This document shows positions 33,486 through 53,528 of a stretch of DNA of 64,000 bases, piece after piece; within the stretch, counting starts at the first letter, position 1, and each line of letters opens with the position of its first letter. The position numbers and the translations under genes were made by a program. Source of the stretch: Geodermatophilus sabuli (GTDB taxonomy: Bacteria > Actinomycetota > Actinomycetes > Mycobacteriales > Geodermatophilaceae); assembly GCF_900215145.1 (NCBI RefSeq), contig NZ_OBDO01000003.1:341305-405304 (forward strand), written 5' to 3'. The notes beneath the pieces were generated by a model that saw only the letters and a list, made by a program, of their open reading frames with translations, made no database searches and was not told where the DNA came from.

Positions 33486-36263
33486 TCAGACGCCGGGGAC
33501 CCGCATCCGCCGGGGGCCGGGCTCCACCCGTGCCGTCGGCGGGCCGACACGCACCGCGGCCCCCGCGACCACCAGCGAGCGCCCTCCGTGCCAGGGGTTC
33601 GGCGGGCCGACGATCACCGGTTCCAGCCGCAGCTGCAGCACCTCGGGCAGGTCGTCGGCCAGCCGCGCCACCCGCAGCAGGAGGTCCTCCAGCGCCGCGA
33701 CGTCGACCGGCTCGGACCCGCGGTAGCCGTCGAGCAGCGGCCACGCCCGCGGCGCACGGACCAGCTCGGCGGCGTCCAGGTCGGTGAGCGGGAGGGTCCG
33801 GTAGGCGCGGTCACCGAGCAGGTCGGTGGCCACGCCGCCGAGGCCGAAGCTCACCAGCGCCCCGAAGGACGGGTCGTCGACGACCTCCACGACGGTGGCC
33901 ACGCCGGGGGCGGCCATCTCCTGCACGATCACCGGGTCGCCGGAGGGGATGGCGGCGAAGGCGGTCCGGACGGCGTCGGCGTCGGCCAGGTCCAGCCGCA
34001 CCCCGCCGAGGTCGGAGCGGTGCCGCAGCCACGGCGCCGTCGACTTGAGCACCACCGGGTAGCCGACGGCGTCGGCCGCGGCCACGGCGGCCTCGGCGTC
34101 GGTCACCGTGCGGGTGCCCAGCAGCGGCACGCCGTAGGCGGCCAGCAGGGCGATCGTCTCCTCGTCTGTGAGCGACCGCCCGCCGGGCTGTCCGTCCAGC
34201 ACGGACAGGACGACGTCGCGCGCCGCCCGCTCGTCGACGCCGGCCAGCTCGGGCACCTCCCCCACCGGACGGCGCCGCCAGCGGGCGTACTGCGCCACCT
34301 TCGCCAGGGCGATGACGGCGCGCTCCGGCGTGGAGTACGAGGGCACCGAGCCACGGTCGGGCATCCCCTCCTCGCCGGGGACGGCCAGCTCCGGCGGGAT
34401 GCCCTCGGTGGAGAGGAAGGTCGCGACGACCGGCTTGCCGGCGTCCCGGGCCACCTCCCGCAGCGCCCGACCGAACTCATCCGACCTGCGGCTCAGCGGA
34501 GGCAGGAACACCGCGATCACGGCATCGACCCCGGGGTCGCCGACGGCGTCCTGCAGGGCGGCGCGGAACTCCTCCGCCGTGCCACCGGCCCCGATGTCGG
34601 CGGGCGCCTCCCGGGCCAGCTGCAGCCCCTCCTCCAGGACCGCGTCGGCGACCAGCACGCCCATCGCGGTGGAGTTGCCGACCACGGCGACCCGGTCGCC
34701 CTCCGGCAGGGGCTGGTGGGCCAGCAGCGTGCCGACGTCGAACAGCTGCGCCAGGGTGTCCACGCGGATGACGCCGGCGGAGGCGAACAGCGCCGCCACC
34801 GACTCCTCCGGCACCGCCACCGACGTCCCGGCCAGGCCCTCGGTCATGCGGACGTGCCGGCCGCTCTTGACCGCCACCACCGGCTTGTCACGCCCCACCC
34901 GGCGGGCCAGCCGGGCGAACTTGCGGGGGTTCCCGAAGCTCTCCAGGTGCAGCATCACGACCTCGGTCCCGGGGTCGGTGGCCCAGTACTGCAGCAGGTC
35001 GTTGCCGCTGACGTCGGCGCGGTTGCCGGCGGAGACGAAGCTGGACAGGCCGATGTTGCGGGTGCGCGCCTGCTCCATCAGGGCCGACCCGAGCGCACCG
35101 GACTGCGCGAAGAAGCCCACCCGGCCGCGCCCCGGGATCCGCGGCGCCAGGCTGGCGTTGAGCCGCACCGAGGTGTCGGTGTTCACGATGCCCAGGCAGT
35201 TGGGCCCGACCACCCGCATCCCCGACGCCCGGGCGCTGGCCACCAGGGCCCGCTCGGCGACCCGCCCCTCCGGGCCGGACTCGCCGAACCCGCCGGAGAT
35301 GACCACCAGCCCGCGGACCCGCTTGCGCCGGCAGGCCTCCACCACGTCGGCCACCTCGTCGGCGGGCACCGCCAGGACGGCGAGGTCGACGTCGTCGGGG
35401 ATGGCCTCGATCGACGCGTACGCCGGGACGCCCCGGACATGCCGGGCGCCGGGGTTGACCGGGTACACCGGACCACGGAAGCCGTAGTCCAGCAGGTGCA
35501 GCAGGACGGCGTGGCCGATCTTGTCCGCGTCGTTGCTCGCCCCCACCACGGCGACCGACGACGGCGTCAGAAGCCGGGCGATCGAGCGGGACTCGCTGCG
35601 CTGCTCGCGCTCGTAGAGCACCGCGAGCGCGGTCTCGGTGGGCGCGATCGGGAAGGTCAGGTGGACCACGCCCTCCTCGTACGTGCGCTTCGGCGTGTAC
35701 CCGGCGTCGAGGAAGACCCGGACCATCCGGTTGTTCTGCGCCAGCACCTCGGCGACGAACCGCTCGATGCCCCGCTCCCGTGCCGCGGCGGCCAGGTGCT
35801 CCAGCAGCACCGAGCCCAGGCCGCGGCCCTGGTGGGCGTCCTCGATGAGGAAGGCCACCTCGGCGTCACTGGTGTCCGGGTACCGGTCGTAGCGGCCGAC
35901 GCCGATGACCTGGTCGCCGAGGACCAGCACGAAGGCCACCCGGGAGTCGTGGTCGACGTGGGTGAACCGGTGCAGGTCGCGGTCGGACAGCCGCTTCATC
36001 GGGCCGAAGAAGCGGTAGTAGCGGGTCTGGTCGGAGCTGCGGTCCATGAGCCCGACCAGCGCCTCGGCGTCGTCGGGACGGATCGGGCGCAGGTGCAGCG
36101 TGCCGCCGTCGGCGGCGATGATGTCGGCCTCCCAGTGGGCGGGGGACTGCGGCGCGGCGGGCTCGTCGGGGCCGGACGGCCCCCCAGCAGCGCCCGCGGC
36201 CCCGTCCAGAGGCTCGCCACGAGCCTGCGAGTGGTGAGGAGGACGGGGTCCTTTCTCAGTCAC
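33486..36263 (-). CDS. PatA-like protein lysine acetyltransferase (GNAT plus acyl-CoA synthetase-like domains)
   Basis: 925 residues. After an N-terminal segment derived from a hairpin repeat (about 5-21), a GNAT domain (about 50-215) shows EVAFLIEDAHQGRGLGSVLLEHLA. Next is a CoA-binding Rossmann domain (VAVVGASNDADKIGHAVL) and succinyl-CoA-ligase-like domains, ending in an ATP-grasp domain (GVPLLGTRTVTDAEAA, HRSDLGGVRLDL). The catalytic His motif S-H-T-G of ADP-forming acetyl-CoA synthetases appears lost: the aligned stretch reads MTEGLAGTSVAV. That is typical of Pat acetyltransferases, whose large domain is regulatory. The expected role is to acetylate and switch off acetyl-CoA synthetase. 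GTG start overlaps the acuC stop by eight bases. Confidence 0.85.
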   Translation of the reverse strand: MTEKGPRPPHHSQARGEPLDGAAGAAGGPSGPDEPAAPQSPAHWEADIIAADGGTLHLRPIRPDDAEALVGLMDRSSDQTRYYRFFGPMKRLSDRDLHRFTHVDHDSRVAFVLVLGDQVIGVGRYDRYPDTSDAEVAFLIEDAHQGRGLGSVLLEHLAAAARERGIERFVAEVLAQNNRMVRVFLDAGYTPKRTYEEGVVHLTFPIAPTETALAVLYEREQRSESRSIARLLTPSSVAVVGASNDADKIGHAVLLHLLDYGFRGPVYPVNPGARHVRGVPAYASIEAIPDDVDLAVLAVPADEVADVVEACRRKRVRGLVVISGGFGESGPEGRVAERALVASARASGMRVVGPNCLGIVNTDTSVRLNASLAPRIPGRGRVGFFAQSGALGSALMEQARTRNIGLSSFVSAGNRADVSGNDLLQYWATDPGTEVVMLHLESFGNPRKFARLARRVGRDKPVVAVKSGRHVRMTEGLAGTSVAVPEESVAALFASAGVIRVDTLAQLFDVGTLLAHQPLPEGDRVAVVGNSTAMGVLVADAVLEEGLQLAREAPADIGAGGTAEEFRAALQDAVGDPGVDAVIAVFLPPLSRRSDEFGRALREVARDAGKPVVATFLSTEGIPPELAVPGEEGMPDRGSVPSYSTPERAVIALAKVAQYARWRRRPVGEVPELAGVDERAARDVVLSVLDGQPGGRSLTDEETIALLAAYGVPLLGTRTVTDAEAAVAAADAVGYPVVLKSTAPWLRHRSDLGGVRLDLADADAVRTAFAAIPSGDPVIVQEMAAPGVATVVEVVDDPSFGALVSFGLGGVATDLLGDRAYRTLPLTDLDAAELVRAPRAWPLLDGYRGSEPVDVAALEDLLLRVARLADDLPEVLQLRLEPVIVGPPNPWHGGRSLVVAGAAVRVGPPTARVEPGPRRMRVPGV
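36198..36251 (-). repeat. Hairpin repeat, copy A (in the PatA-like gene)
   Basis: 54 bases with outer stem CCCCGTCC (read on the minus strand) paired with GGACGGGG and the shared core CACCACTCGCAGGCTCG. It lies four codons inside the acetyltransferase gene and is translated as PPHHSQARGEPLDG. Copies B and C are at 46980 and 48958. The stem sequence differs from the other copies yet remains paired. Confidence 0.75.
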
Positions 36264-37437
36264 GGGGGTCGTCCGGGTCGAGGCCGAAGTACGGGAAGGC
36301 CGCCCGCCGGGTGCGGGAGATGGCGCGGTCGACCCGGGACTCGGTGAACGGGTCCCAGCGCGAGAAGCCGGTGTAGCCGCCCTCGGTCATGTGCGTCGGC
36401 GGCCGCGCGCGCAGGCCACGCCGGACGACGTCCTCCCGCCACGACTCGGGGATCTCCGTGGCCGGGTCCAGCCGGTCGCCGCTGGCCTCCGCGATCAGGT
36501 GGGTCCAGGCGCGGGGCACGCACCGGACCAGGCCGTACCCGCCCCCGCCCAGGGCCAGCCAGCGGCCGTCGCAGATCTCGTGGGCCAGCTCGTGCAGGAC
36601 GCGGTAGCTGGCCCGCTGGCCGTCGACGGTGAGGGAGAGGTCGGCGAGAGGGTCCTCGTGGTGGGCGTCGCACCCGCACTGGGTCACGATGATCTCCGGC
36701 TGGAACGCCTTCAGCACGCTGGGCACCACGGCGTGGAAGGCCCGCAGCCAGCCGGAGTCGTCGGTGCCGTTGGGCAGGGGCAGGTTGACCGCGCTGCCGA
36801 GTGCCTTCTCCGGGTCGCCGGTCTCCTCCGGGTAGCCGGTGCCGGGGAACAGGGTCAGCGGCGTCTGGTGGACGCTGACGGTGAGCACCCGCGGGTCGTC
36901 GTAGAAGGCGGCCTGGACGCCGTCCCCGTGGTGGACGTCGATGTCGACGTAGGCGATCCGCTGGTGGCCCTGCGCGAGCAGCCAGGCGATGGCGACCGCG
37001 GCGTCGTTGAAGACGCAGAACCCGGACGCGCGTTCGCGCATGGCGTGGTGCAGGCCCCCGGAGATGTTCACCGCGTGCTGGGCGGTGCCCGCGTGCACCT
37101 GCTGGGCGGCGAGCACACTCCCGCCGGTGATCAGCGCGGCGGCGTCGTACATGCGCTCGAAGATGGGGTTGTCCGCCGTCCCGAGGCCGAAGCCGATGTC
37201 GGGCTCGGCCGGGGCGCGCCGCACCGCGTCCAGGTAGGCCGGGTCGTGCACGAGCGTGAGCAGGTCCACGTCGGCCGGGGTCGGCTTCAGCACCCGCAGC
37301 CGGTCGGAGGCCAGGACGCCGAGTGAGTCGGCCAGTCGCATCGTGAGGTCCAGCCGGACCGGGTGGAGGGGGTGGTCCCCGCCCATCGTGTAGCCGAGCA
37401 GCGCGTCGTCCCAGACGACCGCGATCGAGTCACTCAC
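36256..37437 (-). CDS. acuC: Acetoin utilization protein AcuC, class II-like protein deacetylase
   Basis: 393 residues from GTG 37437. Histone-deacetylase fold with [21 protein letters not shown] near residue 127, the zinc site [13 protein letters not shown] (Asp and His ligands) near 164, [14 protein letters not shown] near 245 and LGGGGYGLV near 285. AcuC removes acetyl groups from acetyl-CoA synthetase, restoring its activity. The gene overlaps the PatA-like acetyltransferase by eight bases, so writer and eraser of the same modification are made from one transcript. Confidence 0.92.
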
Positions 37438-37605
37438 CAGCTCTCCTCGCTGACGCGCGGGACGGGCGGGGCCGCCGGCGACCCCCGGACCGCTTCGGGT
37501 GCGACGCTACCGCCGGCGCACCGTTCCCGACCTCTGAGCGTGCCGCCGCGTGACCCGGTCCACGAGCGCTCCCCCGTACCATCAGGGGAGACACGGAGGA
37601 GAGCT

Positions 37606-38313
37606 GTGAACGACCTCATCGACACCACCGAGATGTACCTCCGGACGATCTTCGAGCTGGAGGAGGAGGGGATCGTCCCCCTCCGCGCGCGCATCGCCGA
37701 GCGGCTGCACCAGAGCGGCCCGACCGTCAGCCAGACGGTCGCCCGGATGGAGCGCGACGGCCTGCTGACCGTCGAGGGCGACCGGCACCTGCAGCTGTCC
37801 GACCAGGGGCGGCAGCTGGCCACCGCGGTCATGCGCAAGCACCGGCTGGCCGAGTGCCTGCTCGTCGACGTCATCGGCCTGGACTACGCCGACGTCCACG
37901 AGGAGGCGTGCCGCTGGGAGCACGTCATGAGCGAGGCCGTGGAGCGCAAGCTGCTCAGCCTGCTCGGCAACCCGACCGTCTCGCCGTTCGGGAACCCGAT
38001 CCCGGGGCTGGACGCGCTCGGTGGCGAGACCTCGGCCGTGCTGGACTCGCTGACCCTGCTGTCCACCACGGCCACCCCCGACGGGCGCCGCGTGGAGATC
38101 AAGCGGATCAGCGAGCAGCTGCAGGAGGACTCCGACCTCATGCGCGCGCTCGCCGACCAGGGTCTGCGCCCCGGCGCGACCGTGGTGGCCCAGCTGGTCG
38201 CCGGCACGGTCAGCGTGGACGGAGAGTTGCTGCCCGCCGGCGTGGCCCAGCACGTGTTCGTCAGCGCGCTGGACGAGGAGCTCGCGCCCGTCGAGGCCGT
38301 ATCCCGGCTCTGA
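37606..38313 (+). CDS. ideR: Iron-dependent repressor IdeR (DtxR family)
   Basis: 235 residues from GTG 37606 after ACGGAGGA. The N-terminal winged HTH and dimer region is nearly the IdeR archetype: [71 protein letters not shown] and [14 protein letters not shown], carrying the metal-site Met, Cys, His and Glu residues. The C-terminal SH3-like domain is present ([20 protein letters not shown]). It binds Fe2+ and represses iron uptake; a matching operator is found 8 kb upstream at the siderophore transporter operon. Confidence 0.94.
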
Positions 38314-38404
38314 GCCGGCCCGGCCCGCGACGCGGGGACGGCGGGGCGGTCGGGCTCACTACGGTGGGCCCGACCGCCCGACCGGACCACCAGAGAGAGC
38401 CCGC

Positions 38405-40567
38405 GTGAGCCAGCCTCCGGCCCCGTTCCACCCGTCCTCCCCCACCCCGGACGACGCCGCCGCGGGCGCCCCCGCGCACGCCGCCCCGGGGGCCCCCGCG
38501 CACGCCGCCCCGGGGGCCGTCACCCCGCCCACCTCGCCGTTCGCTGATCTGGCCGCCTTCGTCGCCCTCCCCCGCGTGGCCGGCCTCGCGCTCTCGCCCG
38601 ACGGCCGGCGGCTGGCGATCTCGGTGCAGACGCTGGATCCCGAGGGCACGAAGTGGCAGTCGGCCCTGTGGGAGGTCGACCCGGAGGGCCGGCGCCCGGC
38701 CCGCCGGCTCACCCGCAGCGCGCCGGGCGAGTCCGCGCCGGCGTTCGCGCCGGACGGGTCGCTGCTGTTCACCTCCGCCCGGCCCGATCCCGGCGCCAAG
38801 CGCAACGGTGAGGACCCGAAGCCCGCGCTGTGGGCCCTGCCCCCCGACGGCGGCGAGGCCCGGCCGGTGGTGGTCCACCCGGCCGGGATCGGGGGCTTCG
38901 CGGTGGCGGCCGACACCGGCGAGGTCGTGGTCGTCGCCGCAGCCATGCCCGGTGCCGCGGACGCCGAGGCCGAGACCGCCCGCCGCGCGCAGCGCAAGGA
39001 GGCCGGGGTCAGCGCGATCCTGCACGAGGCCTATCCGGTCCGGCACTGGGACTCCGACCTCGGGCCCGCGGCGCCGCACCTGTTCTGGGCCGGCCGGCTG
39101 CCCGCGGACCCACCCGCCGGCGCGCCCGCCGAGCCCCCCGTCCTGCGCGACCTGACGCCGGACGTCGTCCCGCCGGACGAGGCCGGGGACTCCCCGGCGC
39201 TGTCCCCCGACGGCCGGCTGGTGGTCCGCGTCGAGCCGGTGCCCGACGGACCGGCCGGCCGCCGCGACCGTCTGGTCGTGCTCGAGACCGCCACCGGGGA
39301 GGCCCGCGTGCTGGTCGACGACCCGCTGGCCGACGTCCACCCGGCCCGCTTCTCCCCCGACGGGACCGCGGTGGTGTGCGTGCGGGAGCGGCACCCGACC
39401 CACGCGGAGCCGCCGGACTACACGCTGCTGCACGTCGACGTCGCCACCGGGGAGGCCCGCGACCTCACCGCGGGCTTCGACCGCTGGCCCAGCGCCCCAC
39501 AGTTCTCCGCCGACGGCTCGGCGGTGTACTTCCTCGCCGACGATGACGGCCGGCACGCCGTCTTCCGGGTGCCGGTGGCCGGTGGGACGCCGGTGCGCCT
39601 CACCACGGACGGCGCCTACAGCGACCTGCAGGTGGCCCGCGACGGCAGCGCCCTGTACGCGCTCCGGTCGGCCTACGACGAGCCGCCAGCGCCCGTGCGG
39701 CTGGACCCGGAGACCGCCGGCCAGCACCCCGAGCCGCTGCCCAACCCCGGCATCCTCGACGCCCTCCCCGGCACCCTGCACGAGCTGAGCGCGACCGCGG
39801 CCGACGGCACCCGGGTGCAGTCCTGGCTGGTGCTGCCCGAGGGGGCCTCGGCCGAGAGTCCGGCTCCCCTGCTGCTGTGGGTCCACGGCGGTCCGCTGAT
39901 GAGCTGGAACTCGTGGTCCTGGCGCTGGTGCCCCTGGGTCATGGCCGCCCGCGGCTACGCCGTGCTGCTGCCCAACCCGGCACTGTCGCAGGGCTTCGGC
40001 CAGGAGTTCGTGCGACGTGGCTGGGGTGCCTGGGGCGAGGCGCCCTACACCGACCTCATGGCCGCCGTCGACGCCGCCGAGCAGCGGCCGGAGGTCGACG
40101 CCACGCGCACCGCGGCGATGGGTGGGTCCTTCGGCGGCTACATGGCCAACTGGATCGCGACCCAGACCGACCGGTTCCGGGCGATCGTCACCCACGCGAG
40201 CCTGTGGCACATCGACTCCTTCGTCGGCACCACCGACGCGGCGTACTTCTGGGAGAAGGAGTGGGGCGACCCGCTGCAGCAGCCCAAGCGCTACGAGCAG
40301 AACTCGCCGCACCGGTTCGCCGACGCCATCCGGACGCCGATGCTGGTCATCCACGGCGACCACGACTACCGGGTGCCGATCGGCGAGGCCCTGCGGCTCT
40401 GGTACGACCTGCAGAAGCGCGGGGTGCCGTCGCGGTTCCTGTACTTACCCGACGAGAACCACTGGGTGCTGACCCCGGGCAACTCGCGCGTCTGGTACGA
40501 GACGGTGCTGGCGTTCCTCGCCGAGCACGTGCTCGGCCAGGAGTGGGAGCGGCCCGAGCTGCTCTGA
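38405..40567 (+). CDS. S9 family prolyl oligopeptidase-like peptidase
   Basis: 720 residues from GTG 38405. The low-complexity leader contains two tandem GAPAHAAP units. A beta-propeller-like region (about 45-480) carries repeated LSPDGRRLA, FSPDGTAVV and FSADGSAVYF blades, followed by an alpha/beta hydrolase domain with nucleophile GGSFGGYMANW near residue 580, Asp in HGDHDYRVP near 657 and His in DENHWVL near 690. This is an acylaminoacyl/dipeptidyl-peptidase type serine peptidase. No signal peptide, so cytoplasmic. Its stop is six bases from the convergent DUF4192 gene. Confidence 0.9.
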   Translation: MSQPPAPFHPSSPTPDDAAAGAPAHAAPGAPAHAAPGAVTPPTSPFADLAAFVALPRVAGLALSPDGRRLAISVQTLDPEGTKWQSALWEVDPEGRRPARRLTRSAPGESAPAFAPDGSLLFTSARPDPGAKRNGEDPKPALWALPPDGGEARPVVVHPAGIGGFAVAADTGEVVVVAAAMPGAADAEAETARRAQRKEAGVSAILHEAYPVRHWDSDLGPAAPHLFWAGRLPADPPAGAPAEPPVLRDLTPDVVPPDEAGDSPALSPDGRLVVRVEPVPDGPAGRRDRLVVLETATGEARVLVDDPLADVHPARFSPDGTAVVCVRERHPTHAEPPDYTLLHVDVATGEARDLTAGFDRWPSAPQFSADGSAVYFLADDDGRHAVFRVPVAGGTPVRLTTDGAYSDLQVARDGSALYALRSAYDEPPAPVRLDPETAGQHPEPLPNPGILDALPGTLHELSATAADGTRVQSWLVLPEGASAESPAPLLLWVHGGPLMSWNSWSWRWCPWVMAARGYAVLLPNPALSQGFGQEFVRRGWGAWGEAPYTDLMAAVDAAEQRPEVDATRTAAMGGSFGGYMANWIATQTDRFRAIVTHASLWHIDSFVGTTDAAYFWEKEWGDPLQQPKRYEQNSPHRFADAIRTPMLVIHGDHDYRVPIGEALRLWYDLQKRGVPSRFLYLPDENHWVLTPGNSRVWYETVLAFLAEHVLGQEWERPELL

Positions 40568-40573
40568 GAGCAC

Positions 40574-41653
40574 TCACCCCGCTGCCCACACCTCGTCGGG
40601 GTCCTGCGCCGTCGCGGTGATCATCGCCCGCAGCTCGCGGGGCGGCAGGCAGGCGGCCAGCCCCTGGGCCAGCAACTGGGCGAAGGTGTAGGTCGGCCGG
40701 CTCTCCAGCGCCCGCTCCAGCGCGACGTTGGCCATCGCGCCGTCCCCCCGCAGCCACGCGCTCACCGCGAGGAGGGTGGCCGGCGCGGCGTCGAGCGGCG
40801 CCGGCGCCCGCCGGGTGCACTCGGTCCACAGCGTCTCGGCCGCGGCGGCGTCGTCCCCCAGGGCGAAGGTGAGGGCGCGGTCGCGCACCCGGACGTCGGC
40901 CAGCGCCCACACGACCCGCGCGACGTCCCGGTCCGACAGCCGGGCGCCGCCGGGCCCGCAGCGGCCCAGGACCCGGACGACGGTGTCCCAGGAGCGGCGG
41001 GCCTCGGCGTCCCGGTCGGCCTGTGCCGCCCGCGCGCGGCGGTCGACGTGCCGCCAGGTCAGGGCCTCCATCTCCGCCGCAGCCGGCCCCGGGATGCGGG
41101 CGATCCGCTCCTCGAGCGCCGCCCGGTGGCGCTCCACGACCACACCGGAGGCCACGGAGGCGACCGTCAGCTCGGGCACCCCGCCGGGCAGCAGCGTCCC
41201 GGCCGCGGGGGCGCAGCAGGGTTCCGGGCAGTCGTAGGACCACCACCGGCCCCGGCGGACCAGGATCGCGTCGGCGACCGGGATGCCGAGATCGGCGAGC
41301 GCGACCACCGCGTCGTGCACGACGTCGCGGTGCGGCAGCCCGGCCACCGTCGCCCCGGGCGGCTGGCCGGGCAGGGGCAGCAGGTCGTCGGGCGCCTCGG
41401 ACACGACCGCGACGACCACCGCCGCGGGGTCGTCCGTGGCGACGCTCCGGGCGAGCAGCCGGGTGGCCGGCGCCGACGTCCCCCGGACCGGGAGGTCGGC
41501 GCGCACGGTGAGGCCGACCCGGCGGCCGCTCTCGCCCCCGAGGGCGACCAGCAGCACGGACTCGTGCGGGTGGAAGCCGATGAGGGCAGGCAGCGCCGCG
41601 GCCACCTCACCGAGCTGGGAGATGCGGACCTCGGGGCGCGGGGTGTCGTCCAT
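40574..41653 (-). CDS. DUF4192 family protein
   Basis: 359 residues from ATG 41653. The family pattern is clear: ALPALIGFHPHESVLLVALGG near the start, then repeated mixed alpha/beta segments, a CPEPCCAPA cysteine patch near residue 150, and the helical C-terminal part ALTFALGDDAAAAETLWTECTRRAPAPL. DUF4192 proteins are common in Actinobacteria and have no established function. An ATG nine codons upstream is an alternative start. Convergent with the S9 peptidase. Confidence 0.85.
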   Translation of the reverse strand: MDDTPRPEVRISQLGEVAAALPALIGFHPHESVLLVALGGESGRRVGLTVRADLPVRGTSAPATRLLARSVATDDPAAVVVAVVSEAPDDLLPLPGQPPGATVAGLPHRDVVHDAVVALADLGIPVADAILVRRGRWWSYDCPEPCCAPAAGTLLPGGVPELTVASVASGVVVERHRAALEERIARIPGPAAAEMEALTWRHVDRRARAAQADRDAEARRSWDTVVRVLGRCGPGGARLSDRDVARVVWALADVRVRDRALTFALGDDAAAAETLWTECTRRAPAPLDAAPATLLAVSAWLRGDGAMANVALERALESRPTYTFAQLLAQGLAACLPPRELRAMITATAQDPDEVWAAG

Positions 41654-41748
41654 GCCGCCGACCCTCGTGGCCGGCGGCACCCGACGGGGCCGCGCACGGA
41701 GGACTGTGGACGGCGGCCGGGTCTGTGGAGGGCGCCGGCCGCCCTGTC

Positions 41749-42549
41749 TCAGCCCAGTGCCTCGTCCTGCACGCGGTAGGCCTCCGCCAGCCGGCCGGCG
41801 AACGCCTGCTCGTCGAGCGCTCCACCCTCCAGCACGGTCGTGGCCAGGGACATCACCCGGTCGCCGTCCTGCACGAACGCGACGAGCACGGGCGCGGTCA
41901 CCTGCCGGCCGTCGGGAGCGGTGGCGTCGACGGTCGCTGCGACCTCGACGGCGGCGTCCCCGAGGTCGGGCCGGCGCACCTCGCCGACGGTGACGGTGGC
42001 CGCCCCGTGCTCGGGCACGCTCGCCGACGCGGTCCGGCAGCCCTCCAGCGCACCGGTCACCGTGGCCACGGCGTCCCCGGCGGCGGACCCGGCGACGAGC
42101 CCCTGCACGGTCGCCTGCGCGCCCTCCAGCACCGCCTGGCCGGCGGCGGCGTCGACGCCCGCGGCGGCCGCGGCCTGCAGCTGCGTCAGGAGCGCCGCGC
42201 AGTCACCCAGGTCGAGCTCGGTGCCCGGGGGGACGCCGCCGGCCGGCAGACCGGAGGAGCGCAGCAGTTCCTCGGTCAAGGGCAGCACCGTAGCGCCGGG
42301 GGCGAACGCCGAGGCCGGCAGCAGCCCCTCGGCGAGGTCGACCGCCGGAGCCGACGTCGCCGCGGCCGGGTCGACGGCCGGGTCGGGGGCGGCGGCCTCC
42401 TGGATGCCGCCGCCCTGCCCGCACCCGGCCAGGACGCCCCCGGCGAGGAGCCCGGCCGCGAGGACGGCGCCCCGGCGGGAGCGGCGGCCCACCCGCAGCG
42501 CCCCGCCGCGGGCTCGCGCGTGGCGGAGGACAGCAGCGGGCTCTCTCAT
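41749..42549 (-). CDS. Secreted lipoprotein of unknown function
   Basis: 266 residues from ATG 42549. A basic leader and hydrophobic stretch end in lipobox L-A-G-C (Cys43), followed by an alanine/proline linker. The mature domain has two spaced Cys residues (LGDCAALL and LEGCRTA) and an alpha/beta pattern reminiscent of PknH-type extracellular sensor domains of mycobacterial lipoproteins, which is a guess. No operon partner; 42 bases downstream of the Dabb gene on the same strand. The ribosome site is weak. Confidence 0.7.
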   Translation of the reverse strand: MREPAAVLRHARARGGALRVGRRSRRGAVLAAGLLAGGVLAGCGQGGGIQEAAAPDPAVDPAAATSAPAVDLAEGLLPASAFAPGATVLPLTEELLRSSGLPAGGVPPGTELDLGDCAALLTQLQAAAAAGVDAAAGQAVLEGAQATVQGLVAGSAAGDAVATVTGALEGCRTASASVPEHGAATVTVGEVRRPDLGDAAVEVAATVDATAPDGRQVTAPVLVAFVQDGDRVMSLATTVLEGGALDEQAFAGRLAEAYRVQDEALG

Positions 42550-42591
42550 GCCGCCGACGGTAGCCGCCCGCGGCGGCCGACGCACCGGCCC

Positions 42592-42885
42592 TCAGACCTC
42601 GTACTGGGCCGCGATCCGCTGGGCCAGGTAGGGGGTGACGTGCTCGGCGATGACCTGCAGGTGCACGGGGTGCTCGGCGTAGCGCCGCCACGCCTCGACG
42701 TCGGGGAAGTCGGCGACCAGGGCGGTGTGCGCGTTGCCCTCGCGGAGACCGGCGTCGGGGCCGACGGCGAAGGAGGTCATCCCACCCACCTCCTCGGGCA
42801 ACCGCCGGAGCGCGGCCAGGGTGGTGGACCGGCGCTCCGGGTCGGCGTCGTCGGACCAGGTGAAGAGCACGACGTGGCGCAGCAT
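42592..42885 (-). CDS. Dabb (stress-responsive alpha/beta barrel) protein
   Basis: 97 residues from ATG 42885, behind GGTGGTGGG. The pattern MLRHVVLFTWSDDADPERR, SFAVGPDAGLREGNAHTALVADF and YAEHPVHLQVIAEHV is that of Dabb ferredoxin-like dimeric barrels. Members act in polyketide cyclisation or stress protection; the role here is unknown. It is divergent from the glycosyltransferase cluster with an 87-base gap. Confidence 0.87.
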   Translation of the reverse strand: MLRHVVLFTWSDDADPERRSTTLAALRRLPEEVGGMTSFAVGPDAGLREGNAHTALVADFPDVEAWRRYAEHPVHLQVIAEHVTPYLAQRIAAQYEV

Positions 42886-42972
42886 GCCCACCACCCTGTC
42901 AGGAGTGGCTGGCCCGGCGCAGCCGGGGAACCGGGACCGGCGCGTTCCCGGCGGAAGTTAGAGTCGCCGACC

Positions 42973-44223
42973 ATGGGACGGTCGTTGCGCGTTGCACTGC
43001 TGTCCTACCGGAGCAAGCCGCACAGCGGCGGTCAGGGCGTGTACGTCCGGGCCCTGTCCCGCGAGCTCACCGCCCTCGGCCACACGGTGACGGTGTTCAG
43101 CGGGCAGCCGTACCCCGAGCTGGACGACGGTGTGCCGCTGGAGCGGCTGCCGAGCCTGGACCTCTACCGCGAGCCCGACCCGTTCCGCACCCCGCGGCCG
43201 TCGGAGTTCCGCGACTGGGTGGACCTCACCGAGTGGGCGCTGATGTGCACCGCCGGGTTCCCCGAACCGCTCACCTTCAGCCTGCGCGCGGCGCGCGAGC
43301 TGCTCCCCCGGGCCGCCGACTTCGACGTCGTCCACGACAACCAGAGCCTGGGCCTCGGGTTGCTGCGGCTGGTCCGCGCCGGCGTGCCCACCGTGGCGAC
43401 CGTGCACCACCCGGTCGCCATCGACCGCCGGCTGGAGCTCGCCGCCGCCCCCTCCCTGCGGCGACGCCTGACGCTGCGCCGCTGGTACGCCTTCACCGGC
43501 ATGCAGGCGCGGGTGGCGCCCCGGCTGAACGGCATCACCACGGTGTCGGAGAGCTCCCGCCGTGACATCGAGACCCACCTCGGCGTGCCCGCGGCGGGCG
43601 TCGACGTCATCCCCGTGGGCATCGACCCCGACGTCTTCACCCCACCCCCGCCCGGCCGGCCGCGCGACCGGCAGTCGATCGTGGTCACCACCAGCGCCGA
43701 CGTCCCGCTCAAGGGCCTGGTGCACCTGCTGGAGGCGGTGGCGAAGCTGCGCACCGAGCGCCCGGTGCGGCTGACCGTCGTCGGCACCGCGCGGCCCGGC
43801 GGGCCGGCCCAGGCGGCGCTGGACCGGCTGGGCCTGCGCGACGCGGTGCGGTTCACCGGCCCGCTGCCCGAGGCGGACCTGGTGGCCCTGCTGCAGGAGG
43901 CCGCCGTCGTCGCCATCCCGTCGCTCTACGAGGGCTTCTCCCTCCCCGCGATCGAGGCCATGGCCTGCGGCACGCCGCTGGTCACCACCGACGCCGGGGC
44001 GCTGCCGGAGGTCGTCGGCAGCAAGGCGGGACTGCGGGTGCCGGCCGGCGACGTCGGCGAGCTGACCGCGGCGCTGCAGCTGGTCCTCGACTCGCCGTCC
44101 CTCGGCGAGCAGCTGGGCCGGGCCGGGCGGCGCCGCGCGCTGGCCTCCTACACGTGGCGGGCCACCGCCGAGCGGACGGCGGAGTGGTACGCCGACGTCC
44201 TGGACCGGAAGGGGCGCTCGTGA
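42973..44223 (+). CDS. GT4 family glycosyltransferase
   Basis: 416 residues from ATG 42973. GT-B fold: N-domain with VALLSYRSKPHSGGQGVYVRAL (nucleotide-sugar glycine loop) and DVVHDNQSLGLGLLRL; C-domain with VTTVSESSRRDIE-like hinge, ADVPLKGLVHLLEAV and the donor-binding E-x7-E motif SLYEGFSLPAIEAMACGTPLVT. A retaining, metal-independent sugar transferase. First gene of a five-gene run (GT4, methyltransferase, toroid protein, two GT2). The product of the cluster is not known. Confidence 0.9.
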   Translation: MGRSLRVALLSYRSKPHSGGQGVYVRALSRELTALGHTVTVFSGQPYPELDDGVPLERLPSLDLYREPDPFRTPRPSEFRDWVDLTEWALMCTAGFPEPLTFSLRAARELLPRAADFDVVHDNQSLGLGLLRLVRAGVPTVATVHHPVAIDRRLELAAAPSLRRRLTLRRWYAFTGMQARVAPRLNGITTVSESSRRDIETHLGVPAAGVDVIPVGIDPDVFTPPPPGRPRDRQSIVVTTSADVPLKGLVHLLEAVAKLRTERPVRLTVVGTARPGGPAQAALDRLGLRDAVRFTGPLPEADLVALLQEAAVVAIPSLYEGFSLPAIEAMACGTPLVTTDAGALPEVVGSKAGLRVPAGDVGELTAALQLVLDSPSLGEQLGRAGRRRALASYTWRATAERTAEWYADVLDRKGRS

Positions 44224-44242
44224 CGACGGACGGGGTGCGGGC

Positions 44243-45019
44243 GTGCTGACCGTCGACTACGACCGGCTGGACCTGCGGCCGGGGATGACCGTGCTCGACC
44301 TCGGCTGCGGCGAGGGCCGGCACGCCTTCGAGGCCTACCGGCGCGGCGGCCGCGTGGTCGCCGTCGACTGGGGTGTCCCGGAGGTCGAGACGACGAAGCG
44401 CTGGCTGGGCGCCATCGCGGAGGCCGGCGAGGCGCCGGACGGCGCCCGCTACGAGGTGGTCCGCGGCGACCTCCGCGCCCTGCCGGTGCCCGACGCCAGC
44501 GTCGACCGGGTGATCGCCTCCGAGGTGCTCGAGCACATCCCCGACGACGCCGCCGCCCTGGCCGAGATCGCCCGCGTGCTCAAGCCCGGCGGGCGGGTCG
44601 CGGTGACCGTCCCCCGGTACTTCCCGGAGCGGGTGTGCTGGGCGCTGTCGGACGCCTACCACGCGAACGAGGGCGGGCACATCCGCATCTACCGCGCCGA
44701 CGAGCTGCGCACCCGCCTCGCCGCCGCGGGGCTGGTCCCGGGCGGGCAGCACCACGCGCACGCGCTGCACGCGCCGTTCTGGTGGCTCAAGTGCGCCGTC
44801 GGGGTGGACCGTGACAGCGCCGCCGTCCGGGCCTACCACCGGCTGCTCGTGTGGGACCTCGTGCAGCGGCCCTGGCTGACCCGGACCGCCGAGCGGCTGC
44901 TCGACCCGGTGCTCGGCAAGAGTCTCGTGGTCTACGCCGACAAGCCCGCCGTCCCCGGGCGGCCGGCGGCCCGCTCGTGGTCGCTCGACGGCCGGCACCG
45001 GGAGCGGTCCGCTGTCTGA
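44243..45019 (+). CDS. Class I SAM-dependent methyltransferase of the glycosyltransferase cluster
   Basis: 258 residues from GTG 44243, 19 bases after the GT4 stop. SAM motif I TVLDLGCGEGRHAFEAYRRG near residue 17, VVAVDWG, post-I RVIASEVLEHIPDDAAALAE and LKPGGRVAVTVPRYFPER. A long C-terminal part with HYHANEGGHIRIY-like residues (DAYHANEGGHIRIYRADEL) suggests a large substrate. It probably methylates the glycan or lipid made by this cluster; that is inference from position. Confidence 0.87.
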   Translation: MLTVDYDRLDLRPGMTVLDLGCGEGRHAFEAYRRGGRVVAVDWGVPEVETTKRWLGAIAEAGEAPDGARYEVVRGDLRALPVPDASVDRVIASEVLEHIPDDAAALAEIARVLKPGGRVAVTVPRYFPERVCWALSDAYHANEGGHIRIYRADELRTRLAAAGLVPGGQHHAHALHAPFWWLKCAVGVDRDSAAVRAYHRLLVWDLVQRPWLTRTAERLLDPVLGKSLVVYADKPAVPGRPAARSWSLDGRHRERSAV

Positions 45020-45041
45020 GCTGCTGCCCGAGCTCCCCGGC

Positions 45042-46106
45042 GTGCTGAGCGGGGGGCAGGTGGCCGCGACGGTCGCGGCGATCGCCGCGGAACAGGACGC
45101 CGACGGCGCGCTGCCGTGGTTCCGCGGCGGGCAGCTGGACCCGTGGGACTCGGTGGAGGCCGCGATGGCTCTCGACGTCGGTGGCGAGCACGAGCGGGCC
45201 GCGGCCGCCTATCGCTGGCTGGCCGGGCGGCAGCGGCCGGACGGGTCGTGGGCCGCGGAGTACCGCGCCGGCGTGGAGACCGCCCCGGAGGTGGAGAGCA
45301 ACCACGCCGGCTACCTCGCCGTGGGGCTGTGGCACAGCTGGCTGTGCACCGGCGACGAGGAGCTGGTCACCGGGTTGTGGCCGGTGGTCCGCCGCGGGCT
45401 CGACCTGGTCACCCGCATGCAGCTGCCCGGTGGCGCGGTCGGCTGGGCGCTGCGGCCGGACGGCACGCCCGACGACACCGCGCTGCTCACCGGCAACGCC
45501 AGCCTGTTCCAGGCGCTGCGCTGCGGCGTGGCGCTGGCCGCCCTCGCCGGGGAGCCCCAGCCGGACTGGGAGCTGGCCGCCGACGACCTGGGCACGGCGC
45601 TGCGCACCCGCCCGGAGGCGTTCGCCGACCGCTCCCGCTACTCGATGGACTGGTACTACCCCGTCCTCGGCGGTGCGCTGACCGGCCCCGCGGCGACCGA
45701 GCGGCTGGCCGCCGACTGGGACCGCTTCGTCGTCCCCGGCCTCGGCGCGCGGTGCGTGGCCGACCGCCCGTGGGTGACCGGCGCGGAGACCTGCGAGCTG
45801 GCGCTGGCGTTGGCCGCCGTCGGGCAGCGGGACGCCGCCGTGGAGCAGGTGGCCGCCATGCAGCACCTGCGCGCCGACGACGGCTCCTACTGGACGGGGT
45901 TCGTCTACCCCGACGACGCCCGCTGGCCGGTCGAGCGGACCACCTGGACGGCGGCGGCCGTCGTCCTCGCCGCGGATGCGCTGGCCGGGGCCACCCCGGC
46001 CTGCGGGCTGTTCACCTCGCCGGGGGCGCTGCCGGCCGCTGGCACGGAGAGGTCACACAGCGCGGTGGATTGGCTCGCGGGGGGCGCGGGCACGGTCCCG
46101 TCGTGA
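45042..46106 (+). CDS. Alpha/alpha-toroid protein (annotated in relatives as prenyltransferase-like)
   Basis: 354 residues from GTG 45042, the only ATG or GTG in frame after the methyltransferase. Repeating helix pairs with GALPWFRGG, PWDSVEAAMAL, ESNHAGYLAVGLWHSW, RYSMDWYYPVLGG and VERTTWTAAAVVLAADAL form an (alpha/alpha)6 toroid. This shape is shared by squalene/terpene cyclases, prenyltransferases and six-hairpin glycosidases, but the terpene-cyclase D-x-D-D motif is not seen. The aromatic-rich, acidic pocket suggests sugar binding. Its function is unknown; coupled by GTGA to the next GT2 gene. Confidence 0.75.
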   Translation: MLSGGQVAATVAAIAAEQDADGALPWFRGGQLDPWDSVEAAMALDVGGEHERAAAAYRWLAGRQRPDGSWAAEYRAGVETAPEVESNHAGYLAVGLWHSWLCTGDEELVTGLWPVVRRGLDLVTRMQLPGGAVGWALRPDGTPDDTALLTGNASLFQALRCGVALAALAGEPQPDWELAADDLGTALRTRPEAFADRSRYSMDWYYPVLGGALTGPAATERLAADWDRFVVPGLGARCVADRPWVTGAETCELALALAAVGQRDAAVEQVAAMQHLRADDGSYWTGFVYPDDARWPVERTTWTAAAVVLAADALAGATPACGLFTSPGALPAAGTERSHSAVDWLAGGAGTVPS

Positions 46107-46975
46107 CCTCGCCCCAGCCCTCCGCCCGCACCGCACCCCCGGTCACCGTCGTGGTGGCCAGCCGCAACCGGCGGGACGAGCTGCTCGCCTCACTGGCCCG
46201 GCACGAGGCCCCGGTGGTGCTGGTCGACAACGGCTCCACCGACGGCACCGTGGACGCCGTCCGGGCGGTGCACCCCGAGGTGACCGTGCTGCCCCTGGAG
46301 CACAACCTCGGTGCCCGGGCCCGGACGCTCGGCGCCGAGCAGGCGGGGACGCCGTTCGTCGCGTTCGCCGACGACGACTCGTGGTGGGCCCCCGGCGACC
46401 TGGCGCGCGCGGTGGAGGTCATGCGCGCGCACCCGCGGCTGGCGCTGCTCAACGCCCGCATCCTCGTCGGCCCCGAGGAGCGGCTGGACCCGGTCTGCGC
46501 CGAGATGGCCGACAGCCCGCTGGGCACCGCTCCGGACCTGCCCGGCCCGTCGCTGCTGGGCTTCGTCGCCTGCGCGGCGCTGGTGCGCACCGAGGCGTTC
46601 GCTGCCGTCGGCGGGTTCGACGCCGTGGTCCGCTTCCCCGGCGAGGAGGAGCGGGTGGCGCTCGACCTCGCGGCCGCCGGCTGGGGGCTGGCCTATGTCG
46701 ACACGGTGACCATCCACCACCACCCGTCACCGCGGCGGGACGCCCCGGCCCGCCGGCAGGCCGCGATCTGGCGCAGCCGGGTGCTCACCGCCCTCATGCG
46801 CCACCCGCTGCCTGCCCTGCCCGGGCTGGTGGAGTCCGCGGTCCGCGCCGGGCGCCCGGGGCTGCGGGGGTTGCTGCGGGCCGTCCCGGACGTGCCGGCG
46901 GCGCTGCGCGCCCGCCGCCGGGTGCCCGACGAGGTGTGGGCCGACGTCCGGCGGCTCGCTGGGGACGCGGCATGA
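46103..46975 (+). CDS. GT2 family glycosyltransferase, first of a tandem pair
   Basis: 290 residues from a GTG overlapping the toroid gene stop. GT-A fold with VTVVVASRNRRDELLASLA, VVLVDNGSTDGTVDAV and the metal/UDP motif FADDDSWWAPGD near residue 88; acceptor region with FPGEEERVALDLAAAGWGL. An inverting rhamnosyl-like transferase is plausible. Clearly paralogous to the next gene, with which it overlaps by ATGA. Confidence 0.9.
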   Translation: MTSPQPSARTAPPVTVVVASRNRRDELLASLARHEAPVVLVDNGSTDGTVDAVRAVHPEVTVLPLEHNLGARARTLGAEQAGTPFVAFADDDSWWAPGDLARAVEVMRAHPRLALLNARILVGPEERLDPVCAEMADSPLGTAPDLPGPSLLGFVACAALVRTEAFAAVGGFDAVVRFPGEEERVALDLAAAGWGLAYVDTVTIHHHPSPRRDAPARRQAAIWRSRVLTALMRHPLPALPGLVESAVRAGRPGLRGLLRAVPDVPAALRARRRVPDEVWADVRRLAGDAA

Positions 46976-47931
46976 GGCAGCACCCTCCTGCCACCCACCA
47001 CTCGCAGGCTCGCGGCGGGCGCCTGCAGGAGGGCCGACCCGACGCGCGGGTGGCCGTCGTCGTCATCACGCACCAGCGCCGGGACGAGGTGCTGGTGGCG
47101 CTGTCCCGGCTGCGCGCGCTGCCCGAGCAACCGCACGTCGTGGTGGTCGACAACGGGTCGACCGACGGGACGGCGGCGGCGATCGCGGAGCGGTTCCCGG
47201 AGGTCGAGCTCATCGCCAGCCCGGCGAACCTGGGCGCCGTCGGCCGCAACGTGGGCGTGGCCCGGGTGTCGGCCCCCTACGTGGCCTTCTGCGACGACGA
47301 CACCTGGTGGGACCCGGGGTCGCTGCGCACCGCCGCCGACGCCTTCGACACCCACCCGCGCCTGGCCGTCGTCACCGCGCGGATCCTGGTGGAGCCCGGC
47401 GGCCGCGAGGACCCCATCGTCCCGGAGCTGCGCGACTCACCGGTCCGCGGCGCCGACTGGCTGCCCGGACCGGCGCTGGGGTCCTTCCTCGCGGGCGCCT
47501 CGGTGCTGCGACGGGCGGCGTTCGACGACGTCGGCGGCTTCTGCGAGCGGTTGTGGCTGGGGGGCGAGGAGGAGCTCATGGCCGGCGACCTCGCCGCCCG
47601 TGGCTGGGAACTGTGCTACCTGCCCGAGCTCACCGTGCACCACCAGGCGAGCACCGCCCGCGACCCGCACAAGCGCCGCCGCGACGGCATCCGCAACACC
47701 CTGTGGACGACGTGGCTGCGGCGCCCGCTGCGCCCGGCGCTGCGCCGCACCGGGCACCTGCTGCGCACCGTCCCCCGCGACCGGCTGAGCCTGCTCGGCG
47801 TGCTGGACGCGCTGCGCGGCCTGCCCTGGGTGCTGCGCGAACGGCGGGTGCTGCCGCCGCACGCCGAGGCCCGCTTCGCCGCACTGGAGCACGCCCAGCG
47901 GACCTCCACCGCCCGCCGATACGTCAGCTGA
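46972..47931 (+). CDS. GT2 family glycosyltransferase, second of the pair, with repeat-derived N-terminus
   Basis: 319 residues from ATG 46972, overlapping the previous stop. The first about 21 residues (THHSQARGGRLQEG) are the translated hairpin repeat. The catalytic domain begins with VAVVVITHQRRDEVLVAL, then VVVDNGSTDGT, FCDDDTWWDPGS and LGGEEELMAGDLAARGWEL, aligning along its length with the preceding GT2. The extra N-terminus is absent from the paralogue. A GTG close to residue 27 could also start it. The last gene of the run; 77 bases later comes the convergent DksA-like gene. Confidence 0.88.
   Translation: MRQHPPATHHSQARGGRLQEGRPDARVAVVVITHQRRDEVLVALSRLRALPEQPHVVVVDNGSTDGTAAAIAERFPEVELIASPANLGAVGRNVGVARVSAPYVAFCDDDTWWDPGSLRTAADAFDTHPRLAVVTARILVEPGGREDPIVPELRDSPVRGADWLPGPALGSFLAGASVLRRAAFDDVGGFCERLWLGGEEELMAGDLAARGWELCYLPELTVHHQASTARDPHKRRRDGIRNTLWTTWLRRPLRPALRRTGHLLRTVPRDRLSLLGVLDALRGLPWVLRERRVLPPHAEARFAALEHAQRTSTARRYVS
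46980..47035 (+). repeat. Hairpin repeat, copy B (in second GT2 gene)
   Basis: 56 bases; outer stem CCCTCCTGC (46983) pairs perfectly with GCAGGAGGG (47025); core CACCACTCGCAGGCTCG is identical to copy A over 17 bases. Translated in the same frame as copy A, sharing HHSQARG. The element directly follows the ATGA junction of two glycosyltransferase genes. Confidence 0.8.
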
Positions 47932-48008
47932 CGGTCACCCCGTGACGTAGGAGAGCGTGCCCGTCGCGTCCGCCAGGAAGCCACCGGTCGCGCCCGGTGA
48001 GGGGCAGC

Positions 48009-48338
48009 TCAGCGTGCGCAGTCGATGCAGGTGCGGGCGGCGGGGCGGGCGGCCAGGCGTTCGGGGGCGATCGGCCGGCCACAGTCCTCGCAGGTGCCGT
48101 AGTCGCCGGTCTCCCGCCGGGCCAGCGCGGCGTCGACGTCGGCCAGCCGGCGCCGGGCCGCGTCGAGCAGGGCGGCGACCTGCTGCCGCTCGAAGGCGAT
48201 CGTGGCGCCCTCGGGGTCGTGCTCGTCGTCGGCGTTGGACGACCGCGACGCGGCGACGACGGCGTCGAACTCGGCCGTCAGCGCCGCGATCTGGGCGAGG
48301 ACGGCGGCCCGCTCCTCCGCCAGCCGCTCAGCGCTCAC
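48009..48338 (-). CDS. DksA/TraR-type zinc-finger protein
   Basis: 109 residues from GTG 48338. An N-terminal coiled-coil helical hairpin (about 1-75) with DEHDPEGATIAFERQQVAALLDAARRRLADVDAAL and a C4 zinc finger CEDCGRPIAPERLAARPAARTCIDC at the end. DksA-family proteins enter the RNA polymerase secondary channel; short actinobacterial ones may act in general transcription control. The start overlaps the preceding methyltransferase by 11 bases, making a coupled three-gene unit with YibE/F. Confidence 0.9.
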   Translation of the reverse strand: MSAERLAEERAAVLAQIAALTAEFDAVVAASRSSNADDEHDPEGATIAFERQQVAALLDAARRRLADVDAALARRETGDYGTCEDCGRPIAPERLAARPAARTCIDCAR

Positions 48339-49035
48339 GGCGCAGCAGCCGCAGCGAGCCGGTCCCCGGCAGCTCGGTGAACTCCCCCGAGTCCAGCACC
48401 CGCCGGTAGACGCCGTAGGGCGCCTGGCCGCCGTCGGCCGGGTCGGGGAAGACGTCGTGGATGGCCAGCGTGCCGCCGACGGCGAGCTTGGCGACCCACG
48501 CGTCCTGGTCACGGCGGGCGGACTCCTCGGTGTGGCTGCCGTCGAGGAACAGCAGCGCCAGCGACGTCGACCACAGCGGGGCGAGGACCTCCGACCGCGC
48601 GACGACGGCGATGACGACGTCCTCGGCGCCGGCGTCGGCGATGGTGCGGCGGAACCGTGGCAGCGTGTCGAGCCGCCCGACGGCGGGGTCGACCAACGAG
48701 GGGTCGTGGTACTCCCACCCCGGCTGGTGCTCCTCGGAGCCGCGGTGGTGGTCGACGGTCACCACCTGCCGGCCGGTCTCCCGTGCGGCGGCGGCCAGGT
48801 AGAGCGCCGACCTCCCCATCCAGCTGCCCACCTCCAGCAGCGGGCCGGGGACGGCGATGGTGCGGGCGGCGTCGTACAGCGCCGTCCCCTCGTCGTCGGG
48901 CATGAAGCCGGGCGCGGCCCGGGCCGCCGCGAGGAGTTGACGGACCCCGTCCCCTTCGGCCCCCTGCAGGGGCCCGCCGCGAGCGTGCGAGCGGTGGGGG
49001 GCAGGGGGTCCTTCCTGGGGCCGATCCGCGCTCAC
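48328..49035 (-). CDS. Class I SAM-dependent methyltransferase (Methyltransf_24-like) with repeat-derived N-terminus
   Basis: 235 residues from a GTG overlapping the YibE/F stop (GTGA). Residues about 9-27 are hairpin repeat copy C (HRSHARGGPLQG). The catalytic part has LLEVGSWMGRSALYLAAAARE, VVTVDHHRGSEEHQPGW, ALLFLDGSHTEESARRD and GGTLAIHDVFPDPADGG, resembling CmcI/macrolide-type and glycan O-methyltransferases. An ATG at FMPDDEG, past the repeat, is an alternative start. Faces the glycosyltransferase cluster and could act on its product. Confidence 0.85.
   Translation of the reverse strand: MSADRPQEGPPAPHRSHARGGPLQGAEGDGVRQLLAAARAAPGFMPDDEGTALYDAARTIAVPGPLLEVGSWMGRSALYLAAAARETGRQVVTVDHHRGSEEHQPGWEYHDPSLVDPAVGRLDTLPRFRRTIADAGAEDVVIAVVARSEVLAPLWSTSLALLFLDGSHTEESARRDQDAWVAKLAVGGTLAIHDVFPDPADGGQAPYGVYRRVLDSGEFTELPGTGSLRLLRRER
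48958..49011 (-). repeat. Hairpin repeat, copy C (in methyltransferase gene)
   Basis: 54 bases; outer stem CCCCCTGC / GCAGGGGG (48960-48967 with 49001-49008); core CACCGCTCGCACGCTCG differs from copies A and B by two bases. Translated in the same frame as the others (H-R-S-H-A-R-G). Located 24 bases inside the gene, just behind the GTGA overlap with YibE/F. Confidence 0.75.
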
Positions 49036-52015: not shown

Positions 52016-52309
52016 GTGGAGAGCGCTCCGCACGGCTACATCCAGCGCAAGGACGACTACCTCAAGCGCCTGCGGCGCATCGAGGGGCAGGCACGCGGCC
52101 TGCAGCGGATGGTCGAGGACGAGAAGTACTGCATCGACATCCTCACCCAGGTGTCGGCGATGACGAAGGCGCTCCAGTCGGTCGCCCTCGGGCTGCTCGA
52201 GGAGCACATGTCGCACTGCGTCGTCCAGGCGGCGCAGGCCGGCGGCCGCGAGGCCGACGAGAAGGTCCGCGAGGCCTCCGAGGCGATCGCCCGGCTGGTC
52301 CGTTCCTGA
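52016..52309 (+). CDS. csoR: Copper-sensing repressor CsoR
   Basis: 97 residues from GTG 52016. All-helical DUF156 fold (YLKRLRRIEGQARGLQRMVED) with the Cu(I) triad Cys39, His64 and Cys68 in EKYCIDIL and EEHMSHCV, the spacing of mycobacterial CsoR. Copper binding releases DNA and switches on the downstream chaperone and pump. It begins the copper operon; its operator is just upstream. Confidence 0.94.
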   Translation: MESAPHGYIQRKDDYLKRLRRIEGQARGLQRMVEDEKYCIDILTQVSAMTKALQSVALGLLEEHMSHCVVQAAQAGGREADEKVREASEAIARLVRS

Positions 52310-52333
52310 CCCGGAGACCCGAGAGGACCCGCC

Positions 52334-52543
52334 ATGAGCACCGCCACGTACACCGTCGTCGGCATGACCTGCAGCCACTGCGTCACCGCCGTCACCGAGG
52401 AGGTCTCCGCCGTCCCCGGCGTGACCGCCGTCGACGTCGACCTGCCGACCGGCGGCCTGACCGTCACCAGCACCGACCTGGTCGACGACGGCGCCGTGCG
52501 CGCGGCCGTCGAGGAGGCCGGCTACGAGGTGTCCGGCAGCTGA
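52334..52543 (+). CDS. copZ: Copper chaperone CopZ (HMA domain)
   Basis: 69 residues with a GAGAGGA site. Single ferredoxin-like HMA domain with M-T-C-S-H-C at residues 11-16, which carries one Cu(I), and the typical C-terminal [10 protein letters not shown] helix. It should hand copper to CopA or CsoR. 24 bases after csoR. Confidence 0.93.
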
Positions 52544-52593
52544 CCGGCCGGGGCCGACCGCCCCATGCCCTCGTCGCCCACGAGAGGACCGTC

Positions 52594-53517: not shown

Positions 53518-53528
53518 GGAGACCCTCG

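Follow-up and report, generated by a model that had tools for sequence, protein, structure and literature searches.

Palindromic repeats dispersed through bacterial genomes are known from several groups. Repetitive extragenic palindromes (REPs) tagged with GTAG or CGTC are units of 20-40 nt, present as many dispersed copies that lie mostly between co-directional or convergent genes near gene 3' ends; some occur within genes, and their stems vary through complementary changes (Di Nocera et al., 2013; PMC3733652). In E. coli, ribosome-stalling REPs place a hairpin directly past stop codons (PMC12306157). Rickettsia palindromic elements (RPEs), of ~150 bp, are carried in frame by unrelated genes and lie mostly within open reading frames (PMC10969869), and miniature inverted-repeat transposable elements (MITEs) are short, non-coding, high in copy number and found in nested insertions (PMC10969869). 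Here we describe a palindromic hairpin family, three copies of which lie in a 64,000-nt stretch of the Geodermatophilus sabuli genome (GCF_900215145.1, contig NZ_OBDO01000003.1, positions 341,305 to 405,304; hereafter the window), each at the start of a different gene. It is likely a mobile, REP-like and stop-anchored family of the Geodermatophilaceae, carried in frame where genes overlap.

The family resembles REPs in being a high-copy dispersed palindrome, with 138 of 147 copies in the G. sabuli genome outside gene calls and 84 of 114 at a co-oriented stop codon. It differs from them in its length (55-58 nt), its long fixed loop and the bacterial group that carries it. Its foot is mostly TGA plus 4 nt, whereas GTAG marks one foot of most GTAG-type REPs (here TAG is found in 16 of 130 anchored copies, ~11 of these being GTAG), and no gene for a REP-associated tyrosine transposase (RAYT) was found in 112 genomes of the Geodermatophilaceae (PF01797, 0/112). 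Neither Geodermatophilus nor Blastococcus is named in the text on GTAG/CGTC-tagged REPs (PMC3733652). An in-gene site is typical of RPEs; the hairpins described here are mostly outside genes and stop-anchored, and their in-frame cases are at the N-termini of overlapping genes. The window copies also differ from the stop-proximal REPs of E. coli in lying inside the frame of the next gene. With MITEs the hairpins have in common a short, non-coding unit, high copy number and nested insertions; the filled/empty pairs examined show no target duplication, and no parent transposon was found, although no genome-wide search for one was made.

A family of covarying hairpins

The initial annotation, made from the letters of the window alone, had proposed three hairpins with a common core, differing but always pairing outer stems, and positions at three gene overlaps. 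All three are recovered where it placed them (Table 1). A 25-base degenerate pattern of the core matches the window three times, against none in 100 shuffles, and a relaxed search of the whole genome (2 mismatches) returned 366 matches against 262 with a reversed control. Before alignment, a coding-like match (L025) was excluded, along with several copies that were duplicate or damaged. From the 25 aligned copies, the 17 with stems in one register gave a covariance model of 58 positions (R1), the eight with stems out of register being left out. The genome-wide search with such a model, suggested initially as a check, finds at least 147 places in the G. sabuli genome at E up to 0.1 (best 150 candidates scored); R1 copy counts per genome are lower bounds. 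Searching 100 of the 109 stretches fetched from this genome directly gave 142 matches with E no higher than 1e-4, including several outside the list of 147.

Read on the strand of the upstream gene, a unit starts with a foot rich in purines and GGACC. Its outer stem measures 8-9 bp, its inner stem has ~8 positions, usually with one mismatch, and its loop (TCGCANGCTC) is nearly invariant across copies. Both stems covary. Among the 17 copies, changes on both sides of a pair occur in 27 cells compared to 8.6 after shuffling, and the outer stems pair as claimed initially; of the five measures taken, that of additional pair types is not above the shuffles (262 of 500). In a larger alignment of 142 copies (A3, from the same 100 stretches), which was fitted to R1, with a lean towards its structure, both-sided changes number 284 compared to 88.9 after shuffling and 17-43 with slid partners.

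The hairpin structure is supported by this covariation and not by the folding energy of single copies, since on the mRNA-sense strand the folding of the three window copies is not clearly better than that of their shuffles (z of -0.34, 0.49 and -1.27). The complementary strand folds better in 134/142 copies as RNA and 126/142 as DNA. This is partly a matter of base composition, because shuffles show a difference as well (-4.96 kcal/mol observed, -3.05 in shuffles); after correction, z is -1.9 for the complementary and -1.32 for the mRNA strand, the former being lower in 103/142. The number of copies that form one long hairpin is nearly the same for either strand, at 111 and 110 of 142. Cells with A.C exceed those with G.T (222 vs 34), but three column pairs supply most of the excess and at one of these (28-51) the letters fit independence. 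A strand preference of the hairpin is accordingly no more than hinted at.

Several minor features of the units were also recorded. Among own copies of at least 50 nt, 96/142 have no stop codon in any frame of either strand, where 69 are expected and 81 is the maximum in 100 shuffles. Behind one gene (L278, G000:C14:253071-253397) lies a tandem array of five hairpins at 67 nt spacing. About one own copy in ten is followed by GTTCCAG..CGTCACC (e.g., L252, L258, L304, L352), perhaps a longer form of the element; a fixed right-hand tail was sought and not found, with GTTCC after 14/130 own copies and 3/119 elsewhere.

Placement relative to stop codons

Positions were counted for the 147 R1 places with flanks, against genes called from codon usage and not from annotation. 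Co-directional genes flank 61 copies and convergent genes 53; for another 24 the upstream gene is on the opposite strand, and nine are inside gene calls. Outside gene calls, 114 of 138 copies share the orientation of the upstream gene, and in 84 of these the model start falls -4 to +2 nt from the stop of that gene. Spacing could be read where the foot was recognisable and a stop of the same orientation lay close enough (79/147 copies): a TGA stop is followed by exactly 4 nt and GGACC in 58 of 69 TGA cases, and a TAG stop is exactly 2 nt from the GGACC foot in seven of nine. Among named genomes (133 copies), TGA plus 4 nt recurs in 50/67.

A bare TGA is not the placement rule, because true stops far exceed their background share. 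At intergenic landing points in the own stretches, DNA that is centred on elements, 905 TGAs are non-stop and 407 are stops; of the copies with TGA at the landing spot, 58/66 are at a called stop, compared to ~20/66 expected from this background. Six of the 16 TAG-class copies have the upstream gene on the opposite strand. As this class occurs also away from gene ends, TAG may be part of the junction; REPs of the GTAG type, too, reportedly often furnish TAG stops (PMC3733652).

Copies of the family are therefore anchored to stops and not randomly positioned. Coupled gene junctions, the target in one of the initial proposals, are not where copies generally lie: placement follows the upstream stop, and an in-frame start overlapping that stop is present at only 10/64 co-directional copies genome-wide, the three window copies included.

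The three junctions in related genomes

Orthologous junctions were collected from 26 genomes of the genus, that of G. sabuli included, and both flanks could be placed in 26, 25 and 22 genomes for copies 1, 2 and 3, respectively. Hairpin or none, every one of the 73 junction-genomes keeps a start that is in frame with the downstream gene and overlaps the stop of the upstream one, and the frame is open through the junction, the start being GTGACTGA in 26/26 at copy 1 and ATGA or GTGA in 25/25 at copy 2 and 22/22 at copy 3. The inserts are therefore predicted to be translated, and the hairpins are in frame at N-termini as first described. R1 elements occupy the junction in 13/26, 9/25 and 11/22 genomes; these 33/73 filled junctions are not 33 independent events. 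Besides the nine filled genomes at copy 2, one (L315) has a right-arm remnant. Where relatives lack the insert, the start of the downstream gene is at the overlap.

The window copies do share one frame, in which each encodes H-x-S-x-A-R-G, but this is not a family rule. At the copy-1 junction the peptide is found in six of the 13 filled genomes and other frames are used in the remaining seven, and some inserts at copies 2 and 3 are inverted, so that frames are in part random. Inverted or nested inserts, states that were read from the sequences by eye, occur in several relatives at the copy-2 and copy-3 junctions. Copy 3 itself lies inside the apparent remnant of an older inverted element, and five relatives (L316, L317, L319, L328, L330) have the inverted element of this junction alone. 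One genome has three tandem units at the copy-1 junction, with the frame still kept.

Could the three genes then simply have an ordinary protein segment in common? The same frame and the similar peptide of the window copies would suit this idea. Orthologues, however, lack the segment or have it in another frame, inverted or nested, and the family lies for the most part outside genes; we reject it, its probability being close to nil. No segment is conserved here, and the H-x-S-x-A-R-G peptide is a by-product.

Probable mobility and its alternatives

At one nucleotide offset, the copy-1 junction has no element, a GTCC-type, CTGC-types with different right flanks, an ACCGC or CTCC type, or a nested form, and the element has been gained, lost or replaced here within a single genus. 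On a tree of the copy-1 flanks, the no-element label needs eight changes. In the G. sabuli genome, an element lies within another at ~10 places, some in the loop after CTCG and others in the left stem (by eye), and nesting is inverted in relatives. Patchy presence among close relatives, nesting, inversion, tandem copies and the wide range of copy numbers support the part of the initial proposal that saw a mobile element; coupled junctions as its target are not the general case. With a probability of about two in three (0.68), we favour the reading that the three hairpins are copies of a palindromic family which is a REP-like, non-autonomous mobile element with a predicted preference for sites 4 nt past stops.

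A number of observations weigh against this reading. Only 4/8 presence changes are forced by well-supported branches; all labels together need 11 changes (minimum 5) and are no more clustered than shuffled labels. Part of the patchiness must reflect loss or exchange and not fresh insertion, because GTCC alleles share the right flank across both main clades. Orthologous gene ends often bear a hairpin of some kind, with stems that differ and can stand at one offset; a functional role would be another explanation, in a comparison that is biased by loci having been fetched for carrying elements. The filled/empty pairs examined contain no clean insertion with target duplication, and in the closest of them (L346, L366) ~11 nt are replaced by ~80. 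The rule of TAG plus 2 nt applies in only 2/6 cases in the named genomes, 4/6 being at 5 nt. Finally, no mobilising gene was found by a Y1 profile, among neighbouring proteins or from HNH-like motifs.

The Y1 profile bears on the idea of a classical REP mobilised by a RAYT, that is, a Y1 transposase. Size, copy number, location behind genes and the TAG foot of some copies speak for it, but PF01797 (Y1_Tnp) was absent from all 112 genomes of the family when controls were positive in 5/14, and most feet are TGA plus 4 nt; RAYT-driven spread is very improbable and was rejected on the absence of this profile. As to a driver gene beside the copies, the largest families among 650 predicted proteins of the own stretches have 10, 8 and 6 members, and only three cross-locus pairs exceed 75% identity, a weak search since families were compared without annotation. 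HNH-like genes, recognised by sequence motif only, are near copies at two loci in all the DNA fetched and at none in the own stretches.

The hairpins might also spread without any transposase, by template switching during replication, gene conversion or recombination among themselves, with arms being copied and sites overwritten. Such a process would account for both arms changing together between orthologous copies, for the lack of clean insertion junctions in the pairs examined and of a Y1 transposase, and for loop-nested copies that have one junction in common and from which some of the outer loop and arm is missing. On its own it explains neither new sites at exactly TGA plus 4 nt nor empty sites with intact, ancestral-looking sequence, and we hold it to be rather unlikely. 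A host RNA element, a hairpin at the mRNA 3' end that acts as terminator, stabiliser or ribosome-release brake and is kept at stops because it is functional, seems to us unlikely. The co-orientation of copies with the gene whose stop they follow and the different stems at one offset of orthologous gene ends are consistent with it, and ribosome stalling is reported for REPs of E. coli that lie no more than 15 nt from a stop (PMC12306157). Against it, the window copies are inside the next open frame, either orientation is found at one junction, the complementary strand folds better, and certain species in genera that otherwise carry the family have almost no copies. The downstream flanks listed are GC-rich without the T-runs of intrinsic terminators (by eye; no terminator scan was run), and a terminator several bp past a gene was reported as almost fully repressed in E. 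coli, although terminators early in a coding region can work (PMC4824070). A translation-control hairpin, the second explanation offered initially, finds no support at the junctions: the frame containing the element is open in 73/73, either orientation is tolerated and the opposite strand folds better, if less clearly after control for composition. Control by a sense-strand hairpin is disfavoured.

As a mobile element, the family would spread by insertion, guided by the hairpin and through a factor other than a Y1/RAYT transposase. If a downstream gene begins within the stop of the gene before it (ATGA, GTGA or, as at copy 1, GTGACTGA), the landing spot would fall within its reading frame, and only frame-keeping inserts would survive at such overlaps. 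The resulting protein would have an extended N-terminus of low complexity, a peptide presumably without function of its own. If this is correct, palindromic repeats have spread through a whole bacterial family without RAYT and with single-base placement relative to stops. Natural filled and empty alleles would allow gene-by-gene tests of a post-stop hairpin or an N-terminal graft, and, as a warning, protein starts in carrier genomes could bear repeat-derived peptides.

Distribution and the loop in other actinobacteria

R1 matches are present in all 24 same-genus relatives and in 102/112 searched genomes of the Geodermatophilaceae; 16 genomes from the order's other families gave none. Across 296 genomes of the class, they were found in the G. 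sabuli genome and as a single weak match each in two genomes, both from one further family. Scanning named genomes with a pattern returned at least 113 contigs, all listed ones being Geodermatophilus, Blastococcus, Modestobacter or unclassified Geodermatophilaceae. The strict core occurs 0 to 224 times per genome (0 or 1 with reversed controls). It is absent from three species of otherwise carrier genera (G041, G057, G069), where R1 finds 0, 2 and 1 matches; G047 also ranks as zero or near zero, and high counts are found in G015, G024 and G003. A phage, plasmid or viral source is unsupported, as a 71-base query had no match in phages or plasmids and one exact pattern occurred in 0 viral contigs. 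In the portion of the literature searched, which includes PMC9686282 and has most subscription journals outside it, no such repeat is described for the Geodermatophilaceae.

The loop CTCGCANGCTCG was also counted across the 296 class genomes. Relative to its reversed control, it is strongly over-represented in a few genomes scattered over other families (for example 99 vs 7, 97 vs 4 and 68 vs 3). At 30 loci from six loop-rich genomes, it tips intergenic repeats with unrelated arms (by eye), whose distances from gene ends vary. The same loop on unrelated arms would fit a common recognition factor. We raise only tentatively, and rather doubt, that these hairpins are a new class of mobile element, which would land 4 nt past true TGA stops by means other than a RAYT, be recognised via the apical loop and be grafted in frame onto protein starts at overlaps, the loop on unrelated arms elsewhere pointing to a shared mobilisation factor.

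The window copies and their genes

The genes that begin with the hairpins are unrelated, and the identities proposed for them initially agree with Pfam; the overlaps claimed for copies 1, 2 and 3 are present, as GTGACTGA, ATGA and GTGA (Table 1). Rfam 15 models at gathering score gave 0 matches within the window.

Table 1. Hairpin copies and flanking genes in the window, and loop loci in other families.
Feature	Position	Strand	Remarks
Copy 1, CCCCGTCC-type outer stem	36198..36255	-	R1, 77.5 bits; TGA + 4 nt past deacetylase stop, within acetyltransferase frame
Copy 2, CCCTCCTGC-type outer stem	46977..47034	+	R1, 75.9 bits; TGA + 4 nt past first GT2 gene, within frame of second
Copy 3, CCCCCTGC-type outer stem	48958..49015	-	R1, 78.7 bits; 20 nt past YibE/F stop
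PatA-like acetyltransferase, copy 1 at N-terminus	33486..36263	-	Pfam: GNAT, CoA-binding, Succ_CoA_lig, ATP-grasp; GTG start of GTGACTGA
Histone-deacetylase-family protein, upstream of copy 1	36256..37437	-	Pfam PF00850, 4.1e-87
GT2 glycosyltransferase, upstream of copy 2	46103..46975	+	Pfam PF00535
GT2 glycosyltransferase, ATGA-overlap start, copy 2 at N-terminus	46972..47931	+	Pfam PF00535
Methyltransferase (Methyltransf_24), GTGA-overlap start, copy 3 at N-terminus	48328..49035	-	Pfam PF13578
YibE/F-like protein, upstream of copy 3	49032..50213	-	Pfam PF07907; start from codon-usage call
CTCGCANGCTCG loci outside the family	L369-L404		Genomes G129, G405, G264, G211, G379, G152, G251, G348

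Elsewhere in the window, a run of three genes (52016-55823; 97, 307 and 764 aa) has paralogues in the same order at another locus of the G. sabuli genome (L247), two of the three being 78% and 81% identical to them. The 764 aa protein presumably resembles a P-type ATPase with a metal-binding domain.

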